From the NCBI RefSeq assembly GCF_907163085.1, contig NZ_CAJQTX010000007.1, positions 372,001 through 436,000 on the forward strand: DNA of 64,000 bases, given 5' to 3'. The translations under genes and the position numbers were made by a program. This document shows, in pieces, positions 29,156 to 31,056 of this stretch (its first letter is position 1; each line of letters opens with the position of its first letter). Under the pieces are notes generated by a model. It did no database searches. It was not told the DNA's origin and saw only the letters and a program-made list of their open reading frames with translations. This stretch comes from Candidatus Accumulibacter sp. ACC003 (lineage in GTDB: Bacteria; Pseudomonadota; Gammaproteobacteria; Burkholderiales; Rhodocyclaceae).

Positions 29156-29181
29156 CCGCTTGTTCGGGTTTAAAGGGCGGC

Positions 29182-29197
29182 TGGCTCATTTTTTGCT
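29182..29197 (+). promoter_or_regulatory. sigma-54 promoter for fliE
   Basis: TGGCTC, 5 bases, TTGCT matches the sigma-54 consensus at 10 of 11 defined positions with exact spacing, 32 bases upstream of the fliE start and just after flrC. Confidence 0.8.
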
Positions 29198-29228
29198 TTG
29201 CCAAATTGAGCCGATTGTGGAGAAAAGA

Positions 29229-29552
29229 ATGGACACCAAGGGAATTGAGCAGGCGCTGAGTGCGTTGCGAGCTAGCTCGGTAGCCGCTGGCGGTCGTGTT
29301 GCCGAGGCGCAGAGCCCGCCTGCAGGGGCGACGGACTTTGCGCAGGTGTTGCAGAATTCGATTGCCCAGGTCAGCCAGACGCAGCAGCAGGCGGAAGCGA
29401 TGGCGGCAAATTTTGCCGGCGGCAATGGCACCGAGAACCTGCACGAGGTGATGATCGCCTTGCAGACGGCCAACCTGTCGTTTCAGGAAATGATCCAGGT
29501 GCGCAACAAGCTCGTCTCGGCCTACCAGGACGTCATGAATATGCAGGTCTAG
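29229..29552 (+). CDS. fliE: flagellar hook-basal body complex protein FliE
   Basis: This 107-residue protein joins the MS-ring to the rod. The C-terminal signature (NLHEVMIALQTANLSFQEMI, QVRNKLVSAYQDVMNMQV) is clear. ATG 29229 has GGAG upstream; a longer frame from 29160 overlaps the promoter and is rejected. It has its own sigma-54 promoter and is separated from fliF by flrBC. Confidence 0.95.
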   Translation: MDTKGIEQALSALRASSVAAGGRVAEAQSPPAGATDFAQVLQNSIAQVSQTQQQAEAMAANFAGGNGTENLHEVMIALQTANLSFQEMIQVRNKLVSAYQDVMNMQV

Positions 29553-29768
29553 CGCGCCGATTGGCGCTGCTGGAACGATGCCATATCTTTGCGCTAGCAA
29601 TCGGTGCGCCAGGCGCCGAACGGCCGGCGTCAGGGGGCCGAGGCCGGGGGCGATTGCCGGCGGCGGTGGCAATGCTGACCGGCCATGCGCAGCCGGCGGC
29701 GTCCTCGTGAGGCTTTCAAGCGCCCTGAGGCGTCGCCGTAATCGTTTGCTCCTTGAAGCGTTTACTTC

Positions 29769-29797
29769 TTGAGTTCCGGGCTGGCTGCGCCCATAAT
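29769..29797 (+). promoter_or_regulatory. sigma-70 promoter of ssrA
   Basis: TTGAGT (29769-29774), 17 bases, CATAAT (29792-29797). A start near 29804 would put the 5' end just ahead of the acceptor piece, as expected for a constitutively made tmRNA. Confidence 0.75.
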
Positions 29798-29803
29798 GCG
29801 GCG

Positions 29804-29869
29804 CATAGTCGTAATTCCGGCAAACCGGAAGCGTTCTGGACGCGGGTTCGATTCCCGCCACCTCCACCA
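29804..29869 (+). ncRNA. ssrA: tmRNA acceptor piece (T-arm, acceptor 3' strand, CCA)
   Basis: This segment holds a small hairpin (TTCCGG-CAAA-CCGGAA, 29815-29830), the T-arm and the encoded CCA at 29867-29869. It becomes the aminoacylated piece after processing. Its 5' end is inferred from the promoter. Confidence 0.8.
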
Positions 29870-29958
29870 CTATGGGGGTGCACTGGTTTCGACAGGGTGA
29901 CAGATGGCGAGCAGGCGACTCGAGAGGCGACGGACGTAATCCGCGCAAAACCACAAAC

Positions 29959-29991
29959 GCCAACGATGAGCGTTTCGCAATGGCCGCTTAA
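29959..29991 (+). other. tmRNA proteolysis tag reading frame, ANDERFAMAA
   Basis: Ten codons and a TAA stop, starting at the GCC resume codon, encode A-N-D-E-R-F-A-M-A-A. Betaproteobacterial tags typically read ANDE(R/N/Q)FALAA, so the only unusual residue is methionine in place of leucine at position 8. The Ala-Ala end recognised by ClpXP is kept. Confidence 0.9.
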
Positions 29992-30033
29992 GGCCTGCTG
30001 AGGATGTAGCCGTCCAATAAACAGAATGGCTAT

Positions 30034-30057
30034 CGGTGGGGACTTCGGTCCCCACCG
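30034..30057 (+). terminator. ssrA terminal hairpin
   Basis: CGGTGGGGAC, loop TTCG, GTCCCCACCG: a perfect 10-bp stem with a stable tetraloop, followed by TCATTTCC. The T-run is weak, so it is either a terminator or the terminal helix protecting the coding piece. Confidence 0.7.
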
Positions 30058-30313
30058 TCATTTCCGCTGGTCTTCGGCGGCTCTTCAATTTGTTGGTTGG
30101 GAGCAGCGCCGATCGTCGGCGCGTGACAAGCGAATGGTCGATTGGGCCGTGGATTGTCCAGAGGAGCGGTTTTTCGCGCCGCTATTGGTGTCCCTGGCCG
30201 CGGCGCCGGCACAAGAAGCCATCGGCGCGCCGATGGCGCGGTTGTGAGCGTTCGGAAAAGCCCGCGGAATGCGCTTGGCAGGCTGTCGAACCGCGCGGTG
30301 GTGCAGCGGCAGT

Positions 30314-30670
30314 TCAGTTCGCCTTGGCGTCTTCGGCCTTGCGGTACTCGCTGTAGTCCGTGAGTTGCGTTTCAAGCTCATTGAAGCTTGACGACGGTTT
30401 CTGCCCGAGCCGTGACAGCCGACGCATCAGTCGCTGCTGGGCAAAGGTCTCTGACGAGTCAGGTTTGCCCAACAGATATTCCGAGCCGCGTCGGGTCATC
30501 ACGACCATCGAATTGGACTCGAAGCTGTAACCCGTGACCGGCGACGTTCTGATGTGCGAGGACGATGGGAAGCGTGGATTCTTGCCGTAGACCCGCCCCT
30601 CAATGCATACCAGGGTCTCGCCTTCACGGGTAATCAGCTCCAGGGTTTTCCAATTATTGAGAATATTCAT
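30314..30670 (-). CDS. hypothetical protein, 118 residues
   Basis: I do not recognise this small soluble protein. It has no signal peptide or membrane helix. The first 60 residues look like a compact beta-rich domain (LELITREGETLVCIEGRVYG; RTSPVTGYSFESNSMVVMTR), and the C-terminal 45 are helical and charged. The strong ribosome site GGGGGAG before ATG 30670 decides the start over an in-frame codon at 30712. Upstream lies a long region with a sigma-54 promoter on the same strand (31057-31072), but about 375 bases separate that promoter from this start. It stands alone beside ssrA. Confidence 0.7.
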   Translation of the reverse strand: MNILNNWKTLELITREGETLVCIEGRVYGKNPRFPSSSHIRTSPVTGYSFESNSMVVMTRRGSEYLLGKPDSSETFAQQRLMRRLSRLGQKPSSSFNELETQLTDYSEYRKAEDAKAN

Positions 30671-31056
30671 AGTACTCCCCCACTCTGTCCACGACGCGTG
30701 CTGCCACGGCACGCCCGCATTCTACGCGAGAAAGCGATTCTGCGTAGTCTTTTGGACGTGCATCGGGCGCTCTGGCAGAAGCGGCCGAGAGGCGTGATCG
30801 TGTGGCTAATCATCATTTATTTCAAGTAGATGCATATTGATAGAAAATTTGTTGAAGCGGTTGCCTGCGAGCCGTGATTCCTTGTGCGGCGGTCGATTTG
30901 CTGGCTTGGCTTGCCCCGCAGCGCCGACCGAGTCCGCTGGCGCGAAGTGGGTTGCCGTGCAGATCGATGAAAATCCCCGCCACGATCCGTTTTACGAAAT
31001 TGTCGTGCCAAGAAGCGGCGGCGCGAGTTGCTTCCGGCTGGCGCCGTCAATTCACC

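Follow-up and report, generated by a model that had tools for sequence, protein, structure and literature searches.

The locus at positions 29804-30057 of the window (the whole stretch of DNA analysed here, 64,000 nucleotides long) raises the question of how a tmRNA gene (ssrA) whose 3' part precedes its 5' part is built, and of how it relates to the standard-order genes carried by relatives of its host. A first-pass annotation read it as a circularly permuted tmRNA gene, of a kind that it called known but rare. Known it is: excerpts of two papers attribute permuted tmRNA to three bacterial lineages, in which it arose independently (PMC9004378, PMC3978253). Rarity is relative, since a 2025 tmRNA database counts 11,946 permuted sequences among 97,179 unique tmRNA sequences, 72 without a tag not being counted (excerpt of PMC11915505).

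The window gene and its processing

We find that the window ssrA is an ordinary, well-formed member of the known betaproteobacterial two-piece family. The covariance-model check proposed along with the annotation gives a match to RF01850 (beta_tmRNA) at 29756-30060 with 231 bits against a cut-off of 84 (E = 2.1e-73, model positions 1-331 of 331); the match begins upstream of 29804 and takes in a promoter-like site. ARAGORN calls a single tmRNA gene in the window, on the + strand, permuted (tmRNA*) and with the tag ANDERFAMAA. Together, the beta_tmRNA score and the permuted call bear out the annotation's central claim. RF04321 (tmRNA_permuted) likewise matches above its cut-off of 47 (29807-29991, 162.3 bits); this model, according to the excerpt of PMC11915505, has base pairs only for the tRNA-like domain and merges alpha, beta and cyanobacterial types. 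The parts of the locus are as follows.

29160-29552, + strand: fliE, the upstream neighbour (PF02049, E 7e-30)
29769-29797, + strand: promoter-like site TTGAGT, 17-base spacer, CATAAT (9/12 consensus matches; inside the beta_tmRNA match)
29804-29869, + strand: acceptor piece, from the putative transcript start to the encoded CCA (RF01850 and RF04321 alignments; start placed from the -10 position)
29815-29830, + strand: predicted local hairpin UUCCGG-CAAA-CCGGAA in the acceptor piece (pair counts over 47 permuted genes; the window fold agrees)
29842-29858, + strand: T-arm, 5-bp stem GCGGG/CCCGC and 7-base loop TTCGATT (RF01850 alignment and coordinates read)
29859-29865, + strand: 3' acceptor strand CACCTCC (pairs with 29874-29880; U70 at 29863)
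29866-29869, + strand: discriminator A73 and encoded CCA, ACCA (coordinates read)
29870-29873, + strand: intervening sequence CTAT, 4 bases (coordinates read; 4 bases in 33/35 genes matched with a spacer of 0-12 bases)
29874-29880, + strand: 5' acceptor strand GGGGGTG, start of the coding piece (RF01850 alignment and coordinates read)
29959-29991, + strand: tag reading frame ANDERFAMAA, intact, with stop TAA (ARAGORN; coordinates read)
30034-30057, + strand: 10-bp hairpin with TTCG loop, 3' end of the coding piece (RF01850 helix; MFE fold)

Read along the strand, the parts run T-arm, CACCTCC, ACCA, CTAT and then GGGGGTG, that is, acceptor piece before coding piece, just as the annotation had placed the T-arm/CCA part before the 5' acceptor strand and tag. 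In this arrangement the two acceptor strands form the seven base pairs that it had described, one of them G3-U70, which we take to be the alanine identity pair. Its ends are also good: 29804 lies seven bases past the -10-like hexamer (29792-29797), and 30057 closes the 3' hairpin. One promoter-like site was found compared with a mean of 0.2 in shuffled sequences, a consensus match being no proof of function, and a terminator scan did not call the hairpin at 30034-30057 as a terminator. Besides the full-length match, the gene resembles RF01850 in its part order, upstream region, tag region and 3' hairpin. Downstream of it, at 30314-30712 on the - strand, lies a gene with no Pfam match that is also found near ssrA in other Accumulibacter-labelled loci.

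Within its own genome (5.39 Mb in 13 contigs, rated 100% complete), the window gene is the only tmRNA match above cut-off: RF01850 matches once, and RF00023, the model for standard tmRNA, gives 12 weak matches, none above cut-off, the best of which (31.1 bits) overlaps the window gene. The genome also holds smpB (TIGR00086, 178.1 bits, cut-off 119.1).

From these observations we infer a start of transcription, a set of cleavages, charging and tagging. One transcript would run from near 29804 through the acceptor piece, the 4-base spacer, the coding piece and the 3' hairpin to about 30057. Its acceptor strands would close a 7-bp stem over an 8-base loop (ACCACUAU), RNase P would cut before G29874 and, with CUAU trimmed off, the encoded CCA would be exposed. 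The acceptor piece would then be charged by AlaRS through G3-U70; base pairing would keep the two predicted pieces, of about 66 and 184 bases, together, and with SmpB they would append the tag ANDERFAMAA. We assign a probability of roughly 0.93 to this reading as a whole, a circularly permuted two-piece ssrA together with its processing plan.

A short trailer after an encoded CCA fits processing by RNase P and a trimming exonuclease, which argues against removal of the 4-base spacer by another cut, for example by tRNase Z or RNase E inside the 8-base loop. We regard such a cut as unlikely, though a real contender: for permuted precursors at large, a review proposes RNase P and tRNase Z (excerpt of PMC3985003).

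It is very improbable that the gene is a decayed or silent permuted copy. The inter-piece helix P2, drawn by Rfam as one long helix, does contain three non-standard pairs in the window, as decay would have it; but the gene is the only above-cut-off tmRNA match in a genome rated complete, its tag frame, CCA, G3-U70 and promoter-like site are all intact, and 15 Accumulibacter-labelled loci retain this gene with its 4-base spacer. The helix itself is uneven among permuted genes. One 4-bp segment of it is standard in 22/40 cells of a clade of short-spacer genes (described below) and in 113/148 cells of the other genes, and four further inner pairs hold in 47/47 genes. A local hairpin in the acceptor piece, UUCCGG/CYGGAR, has 272/282 standard pair cells over the 47 permuted genes (56/60 in the short-spacer clade, 216/222 in the others), and the window folds likewise. 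At its first pair U-G, C-G and U-A are all seen, which hints that the hairpin may be kept by pairing; since this single pair is the one changed on both sides, the covariation is suggestive only.

The same-family standard tmRNA genes (RF00023, next to ubiG) are homologous to the window gene in their 5' and 3' blocks and carry similar tags, such as ANDERFALAA, but in 24 loci each is one continuous gene of 361-418 bases with the opposite block order; when a profile of these 24 genes is compared with the window gene, it aligns in two blocks with their order swapped, profile positions 325-363 mapping upstream of profile positions 70-141. That the window holds a standard-order gene misread as permuted is thus a negligible prospect: the weak RF00023 match lies below its cut-off of 47 and far below the 231 bits of the permuted model, and patterns for the T-arm and 3' acceptor strand have 0 matches in the 727 bases from 29874 on, in agreement with the annotation's statement that no T-arm is found downstream.

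Two precursor designs

The window gene differs from RF01850 at the junction of the two pieces: ACCA is encoded where the consensus reads ACCC, and ACC is followed by 5 bases (A + CTAT) compared with 29 in the consensus. We scanned 84,980 named species genomes with a pattern that asks for a beta acceptor, an encoded CCA and 0-12 bases of spacer, which yields 34 loci. When the window is counted with them, the only spacers that are not of 4 bases are one of 3 and one of 6. The letters vary (CTGG, CTGC, CTGA, CAGG, CTAC, CTAT), and because the short-spacer genes are related, the fixed length is partly inheritance. By their record titles, 28 of the 34 loci presumably belong to Rhodocyclales, five have broader labels, and one (L232) is titled Mycobacteriaceae bacterium; the short-spacer beta-type permuted tmRNA in this last record probably reflects a wrong label or a mixed assembly. 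A relative with the short spacer is Dechloromonas sp. H13 (L230). In the short design, a U at -1 able to pair with A73 is found in the window alone among the 35 genes; the others leave A73-CCA in an 8-base loop, or in one of 7 or 10.

Among the permuted genes of the family sample (described in the next section), CCA is encoded in 14/14 with a short spacer. One further gene (G025, permuted, 160 bits) has an illegible spacer and is placed in neither class. The long design, with 34 genes, has a spacer of 24-48 bases counted after positions 73-76, and CCA at positions 74-76 is encoded in 0/34. Instead, positions 73-79 pair with -1 to -7 in 97% of cells, compared with 51, 36 and 21% when the register is slid by one, two and three bases. 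Position 76 with -4 is C-G in 12 of the 34 genes, U-A in 16, G-C in 2 and unpaired in 4, and because changes occur on both sides we read this pair as kept. One long-spacer example folds into a 20-bp helix over the CCA positions. In the long design, then, we infer that exposing a CCA would first require opening of the helix and addition of at least the terminal A.

Viral contigs have short spacers too. A pattern scan of IMG/VR, in which CCA was required and spacers of 0-30 bases were allowed, gives at least 80 loci; among the matches listed, ARAGORN calls a tmRNA in 63/80, and the spacer of the permuted tmRNA is 0-5 bases in 18/77. These viral genes share with the window gene the encoded CCA (required by the pattern) and often a short spacer, but their spacers extend over 0 to 30 bases, the range searched. 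On one IMG/VR contig (L128:6914-7217) an ARAGORN-called permuted tmRNA has a spacer of zero, with CCA abutting the 5' acceptor strand, and therefore a single cut could make both mature ends.

Distribution and genomic place of the two forms

Now we consider how the permuted and standard forms are distributed. In a sample of 399 genomes of the order, each at least 90% complete, RF04321 scores above cut-off in 22, of which 16 are clearly permuted (> 120 bits) and spread over five families. The other six, at 47-53 bits, are standard genes by ARAGORN and were excluded. One of the 16 (G344; L264, L265), from another family, carries both forms: a standard tmRNA and, at a distance of about 0.5 Mb, a permuted gene that encodes CCA, has the 5-base spacer TCGAC and receives an unusually long tag call. 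The home family, most likely Rhodocyclaceae, is represented by 121 genomes: 49 score above the RF01850 cut-off, 65 have a standard tmRNA above 110 bits, one (G012) is in both lists and eight are in neither, two of these eight (G024, G085) having sub-cut-off matches to the standard model near contig ends. Two or more genomes are called in 43 genera; the standard form is the only one in 22 of these and the permuted form in 16, and 5 are mixed. In two of the mixed genera (G020/G081 and G044/G100) both genes lie on contigs of 0.56-5.3 Mb. The annotation's remark that permutation marks the betaproteobacterial lineage does not hold against the 16 of 399 in the order and the mixture down to genus in the family.

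G012 was rejected as a carrier of both forms. Its standard copy sits on a 6,670-base contig and the UbiG found there is 65% identical to the query, the lowest of 30; because of the small contig and this most divergent UbiG, the copy is probably a contaminant. We left G012 out of the genus counts and of the 88 rows used below, and kept it among the 24 standard and 47 permuted loci. We built an RpoB tree of 92 genomes by a quick method under LG+G4; on it, standard versus permuted requires 17 changes over 88 rows, and a minimum of 15 changes of the standard label follows from the well-supported branches alone. RpoB rejects a single host clade for the 39 permuted rows by 1947 lnL units. The two forms are a patchwork among relatives, mixed to genus level.

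The genomic place of the genes adds to this picture. The 24 standard loci (the G012 contig included) cover part of the 65 genomes and are not a random draw; 21 of them follow ubiG directly, on the same strand and together with gph or ompA. After four loci with no ARAGORN call were dropped from the locus set, 8 of the 47 permuted loci are found at the ubiG site in the same orientation, 8 are there inverted, and 31 are elsewhere. A UbiG search of 30 of the 31 genomes whose permuted gene is not at this site gave one match each (E up to 1e-60). Taken with about 1.5 kb on each side, 29 of these 30 ubiG loci give no match to the permuted or the standard form at E 0.5, and the G012 contig is the one that does. 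The pattern looks as if one gene had been replaced by another, at a single ancestral place or away from it, rather than as if one gene had changed slowly. In the mixed genus g20, the upstream flanks of the permuted gene (G020) and the standard gene (G081) are the same region at 77% identity, and the downstream flanks differ. In these two genomes (G020 C1:138768-142119, G081 C11:76410-79704) the tmRNA gene lies at a rearrangement breakpoint, each downstream flank being found elsewhere in the partner genome and the upstream flank being common.

The gene beside ssrA in the window, fliE, is its neighbour in 12 of the 34 named loci, 10 labelled Accumulibacter and 2 Pseudomonadota bacterium. These 10 are among 15 Accumulibacter-labelled loci; one of the 15 (L227) is too short upstream to judge, and fliE was sought with no match in four (L217, L219, L221, L225). 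The downstream gene is present in L221, L225 and L227. From this neighbourhood we take the window to come most likely from Accumulibacter or a close relative.

Two loci contain partial copies of the permuted gene. In G112 (L058:2676-11836), a truncated copy running from the promoter region to the T-arm lies ~9 kb upstream of the complete gene, and between the two are a tyrosine integrase (PF00589) and a resolvase (PF00239). From its sequence, this looks like an island integrated at the T-arm of permuted ssrA and supplying its own promoter and 5' part. In G041 (L055:2862-2951), there is a partial 3' copy past a HipA-like gene, ~1 kb downstream of the complete permuted gene.

Horizontal replacement or ancient coexistence

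In a tree of the 47 permuted tmRNA genes, ten short-spacer genes, including that of the window, form one clade with 100/100 support. Three other short-spacer genes are placed elsewhere. G032, which has a short spacer, is nested among long-spacer genes (96/96), and because of this the 4-base spacer seems to have arisen again there. Some placements are unsure because several branches are long. We consider it rather probable that the short-spacer subtype forms a tmRNA clade of its own and that it entered unrelated hosts in the family by horizontally replacing the tmRNA gene resident there. In favour of transfer, the clade is fully supported in the tmRNA tree while grouping its nine genomes that have RpoB into one host clade is rejected by the RpoB data (847 lnL units, p-AU 2e-88), and permuted genes occupy the standard gene's site in either orientation.

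The tree comparisons do not all favour transfer. The permuted genes reject the host topology both as a whole (664 lnL units, 39 rows) and with the short clade set aside (250 lnL units, 30 rows), but in the control 20 standard genes reject it as well (128 lnL units), and because of this control tree conflict alone is no proof of transfer. The short clade taken alone rejects the host topology only marginally (13 lnL units, p-AU 0.045, 9 rows), which speaks against transfer and means that the strong part of the conflict is the split between the short clade and the rest. Rank correlations between tmRNA and RpoB distances, at 0.49 for the 20 standard genes, 0.22 for all 39 permuted rows, 0.41 for the 30 permuted rows that remain when the short clade is set aside and 0.36 for the 9 rows of that clade (Mantel p 0.07), are too weak to build on. 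Also against transfer, the flanks examined contain no mobile vehicle: in those of 30 permuted loci away from ubiG (91 ORFs), no ORF family has more than two members, although single integrases could be hidden because only the best 25 of 76 ORF families are covered.

The alternative is that an ancestor held standard, long-spacer and short-spacer permuted genes together and that each lineage kept one, with no transfer. The marginal p-AU of the short clade fits this history, as does the place kept beside fliE in most Accumulibacter-labelled loci, from which it follows that the gene can be stable once settled. Against it, both forms occur in 1 of 113 called family genomes, and that one is the probable contaminant G012; moreover the standard site is occupied by a permuted gene in 16 of the 47 loci, half of them inverted, when a separate ancient locus predicts otherwise. 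We therefore judge coexistence with loss to be unlikely, if well short of negligible, and favour horizontal replacement.

The wider form of horizontal replacement is more tentative, and we would put it somewhat below an even chance: permuted ssrA of Rhodocyclaceae may be a transferable replacement that displaced the standard gene many times, often at the ubiG-gph site and in either orientation, leaving no profile-detectable remnant, and its two precursor designs may be processed differently. As speculation, the vehicle might be integrases that work through the permuted gene's T-arm, apparently the case for the G112 island.

The window gene is thus of a known kind, and the interest lies in its family, with a mosaic of forms and a pair of precursor designs. 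A limited search of the literature found no description of form swapping or of two spacer designs; the published tmRNA database (PMC11915505) very likely already holds such genes. If it is true that one family swaps forms repeatedly, sister genomes would be natural experiments on the benefit of a two-piece tmRNA, and the same genomes would also show how a core single-copy RNA gene gets replaced. The two spacer designs would offer a clean pair for testing RNase P and CCA addition on permuted precursors.
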